Origin: Bacteroidota bacterium
Lineage (GTDB): Bacteria > Bacteroidota > Bacteroidia > CAIKAF01
Assembly: GCA_016866335.1 (NCBI GenBank)
Contig: VGMT01000004.1
Span: 79,294 to 117,822, forward strand
Length of the DNA: 38,529 nt
Direction: 5' to 3'
In this document: positions 23,725 to 32,608 of the stretch, piece after piece
Layout: the number at the start of each line of letters is the position of its first letter
How positions within the stretch are numbered: position 1 is the stretch's first letter
Made by a program: the position numbers and the translations under genes
Notes under the pieces: model-generated
The model's input: only the letters and a program-made list of their open reading frames with translations
Databases searched by the model: none
What the model was told of the DNA's origin: nothing

Positions 23725-24764
23725 AGACCCCCACTGACTTGCCCTCATTTTCATGGCTTCCCTCCGAAATCGCCACTTGGGTACAAGGTGAATTGGTTGG
23801 CAACCTCAATGGATACATCTCAGGCTTTGCCGCATTGAATCAGGCCCAGAAATTCCAACTCTCTTTCTTAGACGATGAAAAGCTTTTGGGCCAACTCGAT
23901 TCCTGTCAAGCAGGCTTAATATTGGTTTCTTCCCAATTTGACCTTTCAAAATTCAGAGACAGAGCCTTTATTCGAGTTCAAAATCCCCGCGAATCGCTGT
24001 TGCTTTTGCTAAAAAGGGCCACCGAACACCAACAAGTTCATCAAGGAATTGAGCCTGGAGCCTTGGTGTCTGAATCGGCGCAGGTTCATGAAACCGCCTG
24101 GGTTCAAGCTGGGGCTATGGTGCGCGAAGGCGTTGTGCTTGAAGCGGGAGTGCAGGTTCATGCGGGTGCTTTGATTGCCAATGGGGTTAGGGTAGGGGCC
24201 AATACCATAGTTGGTTCAGGAGTTCAATTGCTGGCGGCATGCCAAATCGGTAAGAATTGCATTATTCAAAGCAACACGGTGATTGGCTCAGACGGCTTTG
24301 GCTATATGTTGTCAGCTACGGGTTTGCAAAAAATCCCTCACCTAGGCTCTGTAGTCATTGAAGATCAGGTTGAAATCGGTGCAAATTGCAGCATTGACCA
24401 AGGTATGCTTAGCCCCACCTGCATTCAGCAGGGGGTAAAAATCGACAACCAAGTGCATATTGCCCATAATGTTCTAGTGGGCGCTCACACCGTCATTGCC
24501 GCTCAAACTGGGGTTGCTGGTTCTGTGGTTATCGGACAAGCCTGCAGAATTGGCGGACAAGTGGGCTTTGTTGATGGAATTCAAATTGCCGATAGGGTAG
24601 AAGTGGCTGCCCAATCGGGAATCATGAATTCGATTTTAGAACCCGGAGCCAAGGTTTGGGGCTCTCCCGCCATGCCGGCACAACAATTTCGCAAATCGTT
24701 TGTCTTATTTAGGCGGCTGCCTGAATTGGTTAAAACTTGGACTGCCCATGAAAAACAACCCTGA
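23721..24764 (+). CDS. lpxD: UDP-3-O-acylglucosamine N-acyltransferase LpxD (first copy)
   Basis: LpxD adds the N-linked 3-hydroxyacyl chain in lipid A synthesis, on the cytoplasmic side of the inner membrane. I start at GTG 23721, which overlaps the previous stop as GTGA and gives a normal N-terminus (347 residues); a TTG at 23694 would be less natural. The N-terminal uridine-binding domain (about residues 1-105) precedes left-handed beta-helix hexapeptide repeats. The catalytic His is H249 in 'DNQVHIAHNVLVG', preceded by 'IGSDGFGYM'. A second, clearly different lpxD lies at 27400. The 3' end overlaps lpxC by 17 bp. Confidence 0.9.
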   Translation: MKTPTDLPSFSWLPSEIATWVQGELVGNLNGYISGFAALNQAQKFQLSFLDDEKLLGQLDSCQAGLILVSSQFDLSKFRDRAFIRVQNPRESLLLLLKRATEHQQVHQGIEPGALVSESAQVHETAWVQAGAMVREGVVLEAGVQVHAGALIANGVRVGANTIVGSGVQLLAACQIGKNCIIQSNTVIGSDGFGYMLSATGLQKIPHLGSVVIEDQVEIGANCSIDQGMLSPTCIQQGVKIDNQVHIAHNVLVGAHTVIAAQTGVAGSVVIGQACRIGGQVGFVDGIQIADRVEVAAQSGIMNSILEPGAKVWGSPAMPAQQFRKSFVLFRRLPELVKTWTAHEKQP

Positions 24765-27399: not shown

Positions 27400-28332
27400 A
27401 TGCGTTTCCCAAGCCCAATTACCCCTCAGCACATCTGCTCTACCTTTAAGGCAGATTGCATCGGAAATCCACAGTTCCCCATTTTGGGGCTCAATGAAAT
27501 TCATGTGGTGCAAACGGGCGAAATTACCTTTGTCGATCACCCCAAATACTACCAAAAGGCTTTAAAATCAAATGCCTCGGTTATTATTATTGATAAAGTT
27601 CCGGAAATCTCTCACGAAAAAACCCTGATCGTTTTTCCAGACCCCTTTACCATTTTCAAGGCCTTAATCGAACAATACAGCCCCATGAAGCCCTCTCGGC
27701 AATTGGTGGCCGAATCAGCCGAAATCGGAGAAGGTACCATTCTGCAACCCGGCGTCTTTGTCGGTGAAAACGTTCGAATTGGTAAAAATTGCCTTATCCA
27801 TGCCAATGTCAGTATTTATCAAAATACCGTGATCGGCGACAACGTTATTATTCATGCCAATTCTACCATCGGAGGCGATGCTTTTTATGTGAAGCGCAGA
27901 CCCAATGGCTACGAAAAATTCCCCTCCTGCGGAAGCGTTCTCATCGAAGACGATGTTGAAATTGGTTCAGGATGTACCATTGACCGCGGAGTTACCCACA
28001 TCACTCGGGTGGGACAAGGGACCAAAATCGACAACCAAGTTCATATTGGCCACGATACCATTTTAGGTAAACACTGCCTAATTGCCGCCCAGGTTGGAAT
28101 CAGCGGGGTGGTGGTAATTGAAGATTTTGTCCAAATTTGGGGGCAAGCTGGAATTGCCAAAGACCTGACCATCGGAAAGGGCGCCGTTGTTCTTCCAAAA
28201 TCTGGCGTTATGCGCAGCCTTGCCGGTGGAAAAGCCTATTTGGGAGCCCCCGCCGAAGAAGTGAAAGCCGTCATGCGGCAATGGATTGCCATTCGGAAAT
28301 TGCCCCAAATCATCCGAAAATTAAAGATCTAA
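27400..28332 (+). CDS. LpxD-like UDP-3-O-acylglucosamine N-acyltransferase (second copy)
   Basis: A 310-residue left-handed beta-helix acyltransferase with an LpxD-type N-terminal domain (about residues 1-100, 'GEITFVDHPKYYQKAL'), hexapeptide repeats, and the catalytic motif 'DNQVHIGHDTILG' with H218. It is clearly different from the first copy (for example 'IGGDAFYVKRRPNGYEKF' in place of 'IGSDGFGYML'). Two lpxD-like genes, the second beside efp, are common in Bacteroidota; whether both act on lipid A or one acts on another acyl acceptor is not settled by sequence. It starts 15 bp after efp and ends 3 bp before the next gene. Confidence 0.85.
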   Translation: MRFPSPITPQHICSTFKADCIGNPQFPILGLNEIHVVQTGEITFVDHPKYYQKALKSNASVIIIDKVPEISHEKTLIVFPDPFTIFKALIEQYSPMKPSRQLVAESAEIGEGTILQPGVFVGENVRIGKNCLIHANVSIYQNTVIGDNVIIHANSTIGGDAFYVKRRPNGYEKFPSCGSVLIEDDVEIGSGCTIDRGVTHITRVGQGTKIDNQVHIGHDTILGKHCLIAAQVGISGVVVIEDFVQIWGQAGIAKDLTIGKGAVVLPKSGVMRSLAGGKAYLGAPAEEVKAVMRQWIAIRKLPQIIRKLKI

Positions 28333-28335
28333 GCC

Positions 28336-29532
28336 GTGGTTCGAAACCCACAGCAACGGCTTCAAATCGTTTTACAGGTCACCAAAGCCATACAAGACAA
28401 TTATTCCAGGTCTCAACTGCTCAAGGTGCTTGAAAGCGTTCTGCGAAACCATCTAGGCATCGAAGGCTTCGCTGTGTATTCCCTGCGAAATCAACAACCT
28501 TACTTGGAATACGATACCTGCAACCTTGCCGCCGAACTACAAGGACTCCCTCTGGCCGATTACCTTCGCCGATTGGAACCCGACGAAGACCTGGTCGCCT
28601 TGCTCGGCGAAGACCTTTGGCCCTTCGATTTGGTTATCCCCGTCTTCCACAAAACAACCCTGCTCGCTGCTTTGCTCCTAAAAAACGCCAATGGACTCGA
28701 TGCCGATGATGCCAATTTTATCCTTTCCCTGGCAAACATCCTGTACGTTTCGTTCGAAAATAAATTCATGGCTCGGGAATATGCCCGACAACGTTCTGAA
28801 CAGGCCGCTTTGAGCCGGCAACTCGAAGTAGCCGCTGCCCTTCAAAGGCAACTTTTTCCCGAAGAAATGAGCTCGGGCGGTGGTGTTGAAGTAGATGGAT
28901 TCTTTAGAACTCATGCCGAGGTAGGTGGTGATTACTATGATTTCTTTCAGGCACACCCCCATCAATACATGATGTGCATGGCCGACGTCTCCGGCAAAGG
29001 GGTCGACGCCGCTTTTTTAATGTCAAATTTTCAAGCCAATTTCCGTACCCTGTCGGTGTACGAATCGGACCTGCTTAAATTGGCCACTATTTTAAACACC
29101 AAGGTGAACGACCTAGCCAAAGGCGAAAAATTCATCACCTGTTTCATCGGTCGATACGATACCGCCACCCGAACCTTCGATTACCTAAACTGCGGCCACA
29201 ACGCCCCCATGCTCTTGGTTCAAGGCAAAATGCAACTGCTGCCCGCCAATACCGTCGGCTTGGGAATGTTCGATGAACTGCCCCCTGCAACCCCACAATC
29301 CGCCGTCTTGCCAAGCCAAACGGTTTTGGTTTGCTACACCGACGGAGCCACCGACCTGGAATCGCCCGAAGGCCTTCGATTCGGCGAAGCAGCCCTACAT
29401 GAGTTGATCCAAGACAACCACAACCTGGCTATTAAAGATTTAAACTCCGTGGTGGTTCGAAAATTGGAACAGTTTCGGCAAGATTTTCCCTACCGCGACG
29501 ACATCGCTTTTTTGGCCTGTCGATTCAATTAA
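28336..29532 (+). CDS. SpoIIE-type PP2C serine/threonine phosphatase with N-terminal sensor region
   Basis: 398 residues from a GTG start 3 bp after lpxD2. Residues 1 to about 140 look like a degenerate GAF-type sensor. A short coiled coil follows (about 150-175, 'ARQRSEQAALSRQLEVAAALQRQLFP'), and then a SpoIIE/RsbU phosphatase domain with 'EVGGDYYDFF', 'MADVSGKGVDAAFLM', 'YLNCGHNAPMLL' and 'LVCYTDGATD', which supply the Mn/Mg-binding Asp residues. Such proteins dephosphorylate anti-anti-sigma factors or other phosphoproteins; no partner-switching gene is near. It closes the plus-strand operon, 6 bp from the convergent gene. Confidence 0.88.
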   Translation: MVRNPQQRLQIVLQVTKAIQDNYSRSQLLKVLESVLRNHLGIEGFAVYSLRNQQPYLEYDTCNLAAELQGLPLADYLRRLEPDEDLVALLGEDLWPFDLVIPVFHKTTLLAALLLKNANGLDADDANFILSLANILYVSFENKFMAREYARQRSEQAALSRQLEVAAALQRQLFPEEMSSGGGVEVDGFFRTHAEVGGDYYDFFQAHPHQYMMCMADVSGKGVDAAFLMSNFQANFRTLSVYESDLLKLATILNTKVNDLAKGEKFITCFIGRYDTATRTFDYLNCGHNAPMLLVQGKMQLLPANTVGLGMFDELPPATPQSAVLPSQTVLVCYTDGATDLESPEGLRFGEAALHELIQDNHNLAIKDLNSVVVRKLEQFRQDFPYRDDIAFLACRFN

Positions 29533-29538
29533 ATCTCC

Positions 29539-30363
29539 TCAACGTTCGTTCAACATCACCTGCATCCCGTCATAGGCAACCTCAAACCCAAAAGGTTCTA
29601 CCAACCTGCTCCACTCCTCATGCAAAAAGCCATCGCTGGCCGAAACCTGTGTCATGAGCCAACGGGTTCGCGGACTGCTTATACCCAATTCCTCGGTTTT
29701 TTCTTTAAACCGTTTTAATTCAGGAAACCCCATTCTATACATATCGGCCGAGGGCCTTGCCCCATGCAAACAACCCAGCACCACCGCATCTAAAATACTT
29801 CCGCTTTTTAAGTACCTCCAATTTCGCTCATCATACAAGCCCGTATCGGTGGCATACAATACCGAGGTTCGCCCTTTGCGAACTACATAATTGAAGGGAT
29901 TTAAATCCCCATTGTTGCTCGCCTTCAACGGATGAATTACATATGGCCCTAAGTTCAAAACCTGAAATGGCTGAATTTCATGAAAACTTACCGGATGAAT
30001 GCCCTGAAACACCTGTTTGGCTTTCTGTATGCTCTCTTGGTTTCCAAATATGCGCAAATGCTCTCCGCTTCTTCGTTCTCCAATGTAGGGCAACACACTG
30101 GCCAATTCTTCGGCCGCAAAATTGGGGTACGATGAACGGGTAATAAAAACGTACTTTAAATGCTGCAGTTCCAAACCCTGCGTTACTACCTGGTGAAACG
30201 TGTCGGCCGGAAAATCAATCTTCAAGTGAGAATCTACCATTAAGGCACTGCGGGAACGAATGTCTTTATCCCCCAATTCCAGCGCGCGCTGATGCCCATG
30301 CTTTTGACTGAAAATAGCCGGCACCGTAGTTTCCCCGGCACTTCCCATTACCGTAATTTTCAT
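29539..30363 (-). CDS. Metallo-beta-lactamase-fold protein lacking its metal ligands (probable pseudoenzyme)
   Basis: 274 residues from ATG 30363; an upstream in-frame ATG at 30417 would add 18 residues before the first strand. The fold resembles the phosphodiesterase-like MBL proteins: 'MKITVMGSAG', 'SALMVDSHLKIDFP', 'SVLYATDTGLYDERNWRYL', 'DAVVLGCLHG', and a C-terminal 'HEEW..LVEPFGFEVAYDGMQV'. The HxHxDH zinc motif, expected after 'YVFIT', reads RSSYPN (residues 76-81). The 'THFSHN' stretch reads 'TQVSAS', and the 'KANH' position reads 'KASN'. Almost all ligands are gone while the scaffold and the ATDTG Asp remain, and the frame is intact. It may be a binding or regulatory protein. A 20-bp inverted repeat lies upstream. 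Confidence 0.75.
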   Translation of the reverse strand: MKITVMGSAGETTVPAIFSQKHGHQRALELGDKDIRSRSALMVDSHLKIDFPADTFHQVVTQGLELQHLKYVFITRSSYPNFAAEELASVLPYIGERRSGEHLRIFGNQESIQKAKQVFQGIHPVSFHEIQPFQVLNLGPYVIHPLKASNNGDLNPFNYVVRKGRTSVLYATDTGLYDERNWRYLKSGSILDAVVLGCLHGARPSADMYRMGFPELKRFKEKTEELGISSPRTRWLMTQVSASDGFLHEEWSRLVEPFGFEVAYDGMQVMLNER

Positions 30364-30381
30364 GATTGGGTCTCCAGTTAA

Positions 30382-30401
30382 TTTACCTAAATAAAGGTAA
30401 A
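30382..30401. promoter_or_regulatory. Inverted repeat overlapping the promoter of the MBL-fold gene
   Basis: TTTACCT (30382-30388) and AGGTAAA (30395-30401) form perfect 7-bp arms with a 6-nt loop, 18 bp upstream of the ATG at 30363. The minus-strand reading contains TACCTTTA, a near match to the -7 box, so a regulator bound here would block transcription. Confidence 0.4.
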
Positions 30402-30547
30402 TCAAGCCCATGAACACTAAATTACCCTCGCATTAAATTCTTGCTATGATTTTGCAAAGATTTCAGCACCCATGCTACCTAAAGAACAGATTTTTCACCA
30501 CAAAGATGCTCAAAAATGCGTAGCTTCAAACCGCCGTTTGAACTTCT

Positions 30548-31048
30548 ATGAAACAACAAATACTTAACAACCTGAATTTGCCCACAACCCTCCGTAGAAT
30601 CTCGGTTGAATTGTTGGAATTGCTCGACCCAAATCAACCTGTTTTTTTGCTGGGAATTGAAAAGAACGGCAGCCCCTTGGCCCTTCAACTTCAAGCACAC
30701 CTTGAAGAACAGCAGCCCTCGCTCCGTATTCACTTCGCTTCGGTGCGTTTAAACAAGTCCAATCCAGAATCCGACGCGGCACAGGCCTTGAAACATCTTG
30801 ACTTTAAAGGCTGTCAAGTGGTTGTGGTTGACGATGTACTGAACACCGGCCGTACAGCCATGGCTGTTATTGCCGCTGCTGCGCTAAACCTTCCGGCCGC
30901 TATCCGCTTGCTTGTGCTGGTTGACCGCATGCACAAGGCCTATCCCATTTCTGCCGACATCGCCGGAGCCCGAATTTCTACCCTGAAAGGGCAGTTCGTT
31001 CAGGTCGAAATGCACAACGGCCAGCCCCTGGTTTTTTTAGAGGGCTAA
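30548..31048 (+). CDS. Phosphoribosyltransferase-family protein (PyrR-like)
   Basis: The 166-residue protein has the type I phosphoribosyltransferase core, with the PRPP loop 'VVVVDDVLNTGRTAMA' (residues 91-106) and an upstream 'LLGIEKNGSPLALQL' strand-turn. The best resemblance is to PyrR, the UMP-binding attenuation regulator with weak uracil phosphoribosyltransferase activity, but key PyrR RNA-binding residues cannot be judged by eye. No pyrimidine genes are adjacent. It is a single gene; repeat copy C begins 41 nt after its stop. Confidence 0.8.
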   Translation: MKQQILNNLNLPTTLRRISVELLELLDPNQPVFLLGIEKNGSPLALQLQAHLEEQQPSLRIHFASVRLNKSNPESDAAQALKHLDFKGCQVVVVDDVLNTGRTAMAVIAAAALNLPAAIRLLVLVDRMHKAYPISADIAGARISTLKGQFVQVEMHNGQPLVFLEG

Positions 31049-31360: not shown

Positions 31361-32608
31361 TCAATTGTACATGTCCCTCCAAAATGGAATTTCGGCATTG
31401 TACATGTCGCAAAGTTCAATCACATCTTCCTCCTCTGAACCCCTGCACCGAACCTGAAACCGGTGCTCCCCAGGTGCCAAATGGTCAATTCGAATCATGG
31501 CCGAAATCCCTAAATTGTCTAATGATTGATTCCAGGTCGGATACCACTTTACATCGCTATACACGCTGTCGTCTATTCCTACCATAAGAAGGTCACTAAA
31601 GTAAATACTCGAATCGCTACCATGTATTTTTTGCTTTATTAAATCCGCTTTCTTAAAGTACCGAACAAATACATTCAAATAACCCGTGGTAACCACCCTC
31701 GATTCAATCGAAACCACATCTGGAAGTTCTCCCTCCTCTAGATTTTTCCGGTAACTCCTATGGGTTATGTATGGACCTTCTGCCATCTGCCATTTCATTT
31801 CGCGCGTATCAAATACATAGGGCCAATGCATCCTTCGGTAAAGGGTGGAATAGGTCGATACCAAAACCACCACAATCAATACTACAAAGGTTAGGCCCAC
31901 TTTCCACCACCGGGTATTCGATATCAATAGTTTCAATGACCTATGAAACAACAACCTCAGGGTTGTTCTGTCGTACAGCCAGAAAAACGGAAAGACCAAG
32001 TAGGATAGCAGGGGAACCCGCCTTAAAAACCCAAACAGAAAAAAATCAAGTAGGTACACCAAATAGGTTATAAGCAAAAAGCCGGTAAACATGTTGGGCG
32101 CAAAAAACCAAATGTTGCCCATTAAGAATTCCCATAAAAGCATCGGCATAAAGCCCAACAGCAAACCAAATGCAATGATGGCACCCAATATGGTGGTGTA
32201 AATTACCACCCCACAAAAACGGTCAACCATTAAAATTTGTCGGTGCAGGTCGTCCCCCGTTTTAAATGGTGTTGAAAAAGGTTGCCTCGAGGCGCGAATT
32301 CTCCCTTTTATTCCATTCGGGTGCACATAATTTATGCACACCAGCGCCAACCAAAAGGCCCTGGAAATTAAATGCACCGAAAAGCCAAACGTCAATGTTT
32401 TTATAATCGCAACCCCAATGACTATCATTAAAAAAGTGCCTGGAATGCGATTGATGGTGCCCAAGGCATTCATCCATTCTAAAAAAACATCGGTTAACTG
32501 GAACAATGAGAAAATCGCTCCACCCGAAATAAGCAATTCCAACTCCCAAGAGTTTTCTTGCAATTTTTGCAACCATTCGGGCACTTCATGGCCAGGACGT
32601 TGTTCCAT
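31361..32608 (-). CDS. Multi-pass membrane protein of unknown function
   Basis: 415 residues. The first ~255 contain about six hydrophobic segments (near 24-40, 57-78, 80-93, 131-155, 165-192 and 237-255), with the loop 'NYVHPNGIKGRIRASRQPF' between the third and fourth. The C-terminal ~160 residues are soluble, rich in beta-type sequence, and contain 'DSSIYFSDLLMVGIDDSVY' and 'HRFQVRC'. I do not recognise the family; I recall similar large membrane proteins in other Bacteroidota without a known role. A TATCTTTG box lies 18 nt upstream. It stands alone, convergent with the phosphoribosyltransferase and divergent from the glucosaminidase. Confidence 0.75.
   Translation of the reverse strand: MEQRPGHEVPEWLQKLQENSWELELLISGGAIFSLFQLTDVFLEWMNALGTINRIPGTFLMIVIGVAIIKTLTFGFSVHLISRAFWLALVCINYVHPNGIKGRIRASRQPFSTPFKTGDDLHRQILMVDRFCGVVIYTTILGAIIAFGLLLGFMPMLLWEFLMGNIWFFAPNMFTGFLLITYLVYLLDFFLFGFLRRVPLLSYLVFPFFWLYDRTTLRLLFHRSLKLLISNTRWWKVGLTFVVLIVVVLVSTYSTLYRRMHWPYVFDTREMKWQMAEGPYITHRSYRKNLEEGELPDVVSIESRVVTTGYLNVFVRYFKKADLIKQKIHGSDSSIYFSDLLMVGIDDSVYSDVKWYPTWNQSLDNLGISAMIRIDHLAPGEHRFQVRCRGSEEEDVIELCDMYNAEIPFWRDMYN

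Follow-up and report, generated by a model that had tools for sequence, protein, structure and literature searches.

A putative metallo-beta-lactamase-fold pseudoenzyme conserved in two genera of a Flavobacteriales family

The window (the whole 38,529-nt stretch of DNA analysed here) carries an intact gene for a metallo-beta-lactamase (MBL)-fold protein in which nearly all zinc ligands appear to be replaced, and the question is whether it encodes a decaying enzyme, a rebuilt metalloenzyme or a pseudoenzyme kept for another role.

29539..30363, minus strand: MBL-fold pseudoenzyme gene (274 aa, ATG at 30363; based on the ORF, orthologue starts and the model)

The ORF encodes a protein of the PhnP/YhfI type, and the ATG at 30363 was taken as the start because all eight orthologues begin at the same Met. 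The window protein contains MGSAG (residues 6-10), TRSSYPN (75-81) and ASNNGD (148-153), followed in its C-terminal half by ATDTG (171-175), TQVSA (238-242) and AYDGM (263-267). A sequence-only reading of this DNA had called the gene intact with MGSAG, ATDTG and AYDGM kept as scaffold motifs; the motifs, the ORF and its coordinates were found as described, and the gene is intact in all eight species. Scores against family models lie below their cut-offs, at 20.2 bits for Pfam Lactamase_B_2 (PF12706; gathering cut-off 27) and 22.6 bits for NCBIfam PhnP (TIGR03307; curated cut-off 272). PhnP (3g1p) was the single match in a PDB sequence search and again the top PDB match for the A1 profile.

An AlphaFold2 model built from six eligible sequences (pLDDT 66, pTM 0.73) predicts the alpha-beta/beta-alpha sandwich of the MBL fold. 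The model aligned with VIA-align to RNase Z with Z of 18.9, the highest obtained (3.0-3.1 A over 222-225 residues), and to 6b9v, YhfI and PhnP with Z of 17-18, and Foldseek matched it to the PhnP-family diphosphatase 6b9v with an E value of 3e-12. Because the pocket loops fall partly below pLDDT 50 (residues 51-63, 80-86 and 151-155), no pocket geometry is claimed. Structure prediction, proposed earlier as a check for a remaining metal site, thus upholds the MBL fold, while pLDDT at the site is too low to exclude another metal site.

The catalytic ligands of PhnP (His76, His78, Asp80, His81, His143, Asp164 and His222) and its structural zinc ligands (Cys21, Cys23, Cys26 and His225) provide the reference for the window protein. 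A Brucella homologue has a similar catalytic-site set (His86, His88, Asp90, His170, Asp188 and His241; PMC3169410). Profile-profile alignment of the pseudoenzymes to the nearest intact subfamily using hhalign (E 5e-49, 269 columns) is gap-free at the motifs, and misalignment of the motifs was rejected on this ground. T75-N81 pairs without gaps with THTHPDH, N150 with the His of ANH, D173 with the Asp of HDSG, and Q239 with the His of SHISH, in agreement with the earlier proposals that HxHxDH reads RSSYPN, that the HFSHN site reads QVSAS and that the His of KANH is Asn. By this alignment six of the seven catalytic metal ligands are lost and only Asp173 is kept; the losses extend beyond those first proposed to the PhnP His200-type residue (R210) and all four structural-zinc ligands (S19, K21, H24 and A242). 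Residues C19, C21, C24, H76, H78, D80, H81, H151, D174, H240, H243 and the His200-type H211 are all invariant in the intact relatives (n=5), and their counterparts in the window protein are S19, K21, H24, R76, S78, P80, N81, N150, D173, Q239, A242 and R210, respectively.

30292..30309, minus strand: S19-Q-K-H-G-H24 region, replacing the structural-zinc CxCxxC (alignments)
30121..30141, minus strand: T75-R-S-S-Y-P-N81, replacing T-H-x-H-x-D-H (orthologues and profile alignment)
29905..29916, minus strand: N150-N-G-D153, site of the metal-ligand His (ANH) in intact relatives (orthologues and profile alignment)
29839..29847, minus strand: D173-T-G175, with the sole retained metal-ligand Asp (orthologues and alignments)
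29734..29736, minus strand: R210, replacing the His equivalent to PhnP His200 (alignments)
29638..29652, minus strand: T238-Q-V-S-A242, replacing (T/S)-H-I-S-H, with the catalytic and the structural-zinc His lost (orthologues and alignments)

The protein therefore has neither the full PhnP-type catalytic ligands and structural-zinc CxCxxC nor the superfamily HxHxDH motif, which reads TRSSYxN in 8/8 orthologues. These orthologues belong to two genera (g1 and g5) of one Flavobacteriales family and are carried by the window genome, five more g1 members and 2/4 g5 genomes; the carriers are uncultured lake bacteria represented by Flavobacteriales/Bacteroidia MAGs, which include bins from Lake Erken and La Plata. 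The gene was not found in other genera of the family, the pseudoenzyme profile found no orthologue outside the family in 395 genomes sampled across the class, and the inspected matches outside the family in a phylum-wide search with intact-relative queries were of the paralogue type. Chance is ruled out as the source of the substitutions because all eight orthologues share T-R-S-S-Y-x-N and N-N-G-D at the second His; D173 is also common to all of them. None of the eight has full ligands; orthologues in close relatives with full ligands, together with relaxed selection, had been named as counting against a pseudoenzyme. Both g5 orthologues retain the His pair of THFSH (the catalytic ligand His and the structural-zinc His), and two other g1 orthologues retain its second His, which indicates that HxHxDH and the second-site His were lost first and the remaining ligands later, in g1. 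Judged by sequence, partial metal binding is possible in g5, given its retained last ligand His and HxSH His.

In a tree of 41 proteins, the eight pseudoenzymes form a single clade (100/100) that joins an intact subfamily (100/99), apart from the resident Bacteroidota paralogues (98/99). The genera g1 and g5 separate within the clade, suggesting vertical inheritance. The intact homologues that it joins come from E. coli plasmids, Proteus, Enterococcus, a faecal contig and Cetobacterium, and the branching among them is unsure (long branches). In Enterobacterales and Fusobacteria, members of this subfamily form part of transporter operons, and the E. coli and Proteus members adjoin a nucleoside-permease-like gene and an MgtC-type gene. 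The resident intact-type paralogue (PRK02113-type) is present in 15/16 genomes of the family, including all eight with the pseudoenzyme, and shares about 19% identity with it; both the tree and hhalign speak against a broken copy of this housekeeping paralogue, which was rejected.

Several of the intact relatives have features of their own. For the intact PhnP-like MBL gene of E. coli plasmids and Proteus mirabilis (L024:8001-8825 and L023:8001-8822), the plasmid form occurs in 48 plasmid records at >=99% identity, and in Proteus a LacI-type/solute-binding fusion regulator lies next to the MBL gene. The Cetobacterium homologue is directly 3' of a PhnD/PhnC/PhnE/PhnE-type transporter and a histidine-type phosphatase (L036:2758-6846), possibly a phosphate-ester uptake cassette. 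Contig OR846657 (L025), labelled "Enterococcus phage Efs 1-1-1", looks like host chromosome, and gelE/sprE-type metalloprotease and serine-protease genes lie beside its MBL gene. For the pseudoenzyme gene itself, PADLOC gave no defence match, PHROG gave only a weak match and no relatives were found on viral contigs, and a defence or phage gene was rejected on this basis.

Selection on the gene was estimated by the Nei-Gojobori method in the four closest pairs, giving dN/dS of 0.058, 0.047, 0.033 and 0.085 for the pseudoenzyme (three of these ratios are rough because dS, at 1.2-2.3, is near saturation); the intact paralogue gave 0.117, 0.015, 0.047 and 0.071 in these pairs. The earlier view that the gene is maintained is thus borne out, with purifying selection as strong as on the intact paralogue, and a pseudogene was rejected. 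Across the orthologues 80/274 positions are invariant, including 14/24 in the former metal-site loops (hypergeometric p = 0.0018) and 5/7 ligand-equivalent positions (p = 0.024), both p-values being indicative because the loops were picked from the ligand motifs. These sequence comparisons suggest that selection now acts on the old pocket in a new form. Distant members share 46-50% identity, vs 62-67% for the paralogue, and these longer distances suggest a looser constraint over the long run.

30378..30405 (30378-30388/30395-30405), no strand: 11-nt inverted repeat 5' of the gene, 10/11 pairs

This repeat had been called promoter-like and taken as a sign of maintenance. It exists, but it is not conserved in relatives and a search of the site gave no sigma-70-like promoter, so it offers no evidence for function, and a conserved operator or promoter repeat was rejected.

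Two genes flank the pseudoenzyme gene in the window.

28336..29532, plus strand: SpoIIE/RsbU-type phosphatase gene, convergent on the pseudoenzyme gene (genus g1 subgroup only)
30548..31048, plus strand: PyrR-like phosphoribosyltransferase (PRTase) gene, divergent from the pseudoenzyme gene (kept at 7/7 readable orthologue loci)

The PRTase matches Pfam Pribosyltran, with PyrR NCBIfam matches below cut-off. At all seven readable loci, in both genera, the pseudoenzyme gene is divergent from the PRTase gene or a RimB-PRTase operon; the eighth (G001) lies at a contig end. In g5 and one g1 branch PRTase-RimB-like is divergent from pseudoenzyme-aroC-gltP, and the locus of the window's branch has lost RimB, aroC and gltP and retains the divergent PRTase. 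The neighbours are thus PRTase, RimB-like, aroC, gltP-like and RsbU-like genes and not a phn C-P lyase operon. PRTase and RimB-like genes do not strictly accompany the pseudoenzyme gene, since both also occur in family members that lack it, so the gene pairing is suggestive only and may be inherited order. Elsewhere in the window, the gene at 31364-32608 (minus strand) encodes a 415-aa protein that looks membrane-bound and has no Pfam or NCBIfam match; within the window's subgroup it is conserved (78-79% identity) and keeps its place next to the PRTase gene. Two LpxD-like acyltransferase genes at 23760-24734 and 27400-28332 (plus strand) are about 31% identical to each other, and their arrangement is kept in relatives.

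The reading we favour is that the protein is conserved as a metal-free pseudoenzyme and has a binding role (probability about 0.72). Pseudoenzyme status is well supported by sequence and selection, and the original proposal gains from the profile alignment, the dN/dS values and the lack of any orthologue with full ligands: catalytic residues are missing in a gene under purifying selection. From this we infer a binding or regulatory role, as well as the absence of metal and catalysis and the ligand class, partner and mechanism that follow. A PhnP/YhfI-type MBL fold would have lost its dinuclear and structural zinc sites, starting in the common ancestor of the two genera, and new residues (R76, S77, S78, Y79, N81 and N150-D153) would have become fixed in the old pocket beside the retained D50 and D173. 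Arg76, in place of the first metal His, perhaps supplies the positive charge of the former metals and is a candidate phosphate contact. The pocket would bind a small phosphorylated molecule of ribose type, and the target of the protein would be a partner or pathway linked to the adjacent phosphoribosyltransferase. Intact relatives have a nucleoside permease or a phosphonate-type ABC transporter as neighbour, which is in line with phospho-ribosyl chemistry; the phosphoribosyl link, taken alone, is less likely than not. A rather unlikely refinement is a sensor role, in which the metal-free protein, with an arginine where the metal pair was, would detect a phosphoribosyl metabolite (e.g. PRPP or a nucleotide) and control the adjacent phosphoribosyltransferase.

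The main rival reading is a heterodimer subunit that stabilises or steers a catalytically active MBL partner (the resident PRK02113-type paralogue, for example), as CPSF100 does with CPSF73 and INTS9 with INTS11. Inactive/active MBL pairs are known (PMC4819959), the related MBL phosphodiesterases Apyc1 and YhfI are homodimers (PMC9117128) and the paralogue accompanies the pseudoenzyme in every carrier; the pseudoenzyme, however, is not descended from this distant paralogue, which is also present without it in the rest of the family, and we regard such a partnership as improbable. A metalloenzyme with a rebuilt site, holding one metal on D173 and other invariants (D50, H57, D153 or H248), would draw on the invariance of D50, H57, D153, D173 and H248 in 8/8 orthologues and on the ligand His of THFSH retained in g5. 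The usual His cluster and the structural zinc site are gone, though, the HxHxDH loop has no standard ligand pair left and the model gives no reliable geometry there, which makes this reading quite improbable. Decay of a gene kept for now by chance could account for protein distances longer than those of the intact paralogue, but it is largely refuted by the dN/dS analysis (0.03-0.09) and sits poorly with a gene intact in 8/8 species and new residues fixed in the old active site; we give it very little weight.

Among known systems, the protein resembles PhnP (phosphoribosyl 1,2-cyclic phosphate phosphodiesterase, 3g1p) and 6b9v, the best PDB sequence match and among the best structural matches, with which it shares fold, length, motif order, DT(A/G) and the C-terminal DGM; it differs in lacking HxHxDH, the second-site His and the CxCxxC structural zinc site, at about 20% identity. 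The intact transporter-operon subfamily (E. coli plasmid WP_032203560; Proteus, Enterococcus and Cetobacterium) is the nearest tree group and aligns over its full length without gaps at the motifs (21-28% identity), but has all metal ligands and the structural-zinc Cys, and its E. coli, Proteus and Cetobacterium members adjoin transporter genes. The resident PRK02113-type MBL hydrolase of Bacteroidota, from the same superfamily branch and the same genomes, has full ligands and forms a separate clade. MBL-fold pseudoenzymes of bacteria are little described, and no description of a PhnP-type bacterial pseudoenzyme clade was found in open-access papers from a single collection. In the clade presented here both the dinuclear and the structural metal sites are lost and a new pocket is fixed. 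Because its sister subfamily is intact and a sister genus still has some of the ligands, the path by which a metalloenzyme becomes a binding protein can be tested. Precedent for MBL folds without activity comes from CPSF100 and INTS9, inactive MBL-fold subunits conserved for a non-catalytic role, with HxHxDH degraded in CPSF100 (PMC4819959); these are eukaryotic, are paired with active paralogues and have no close kinship to the pseudoenzyme. In bacteria, the MBL-fold protein PqsE has a regulatory role (RhlR binding) separable from catalysis (PMC12077149), although PqsE is catalytically active in vitro and belongs to a different subfamily.
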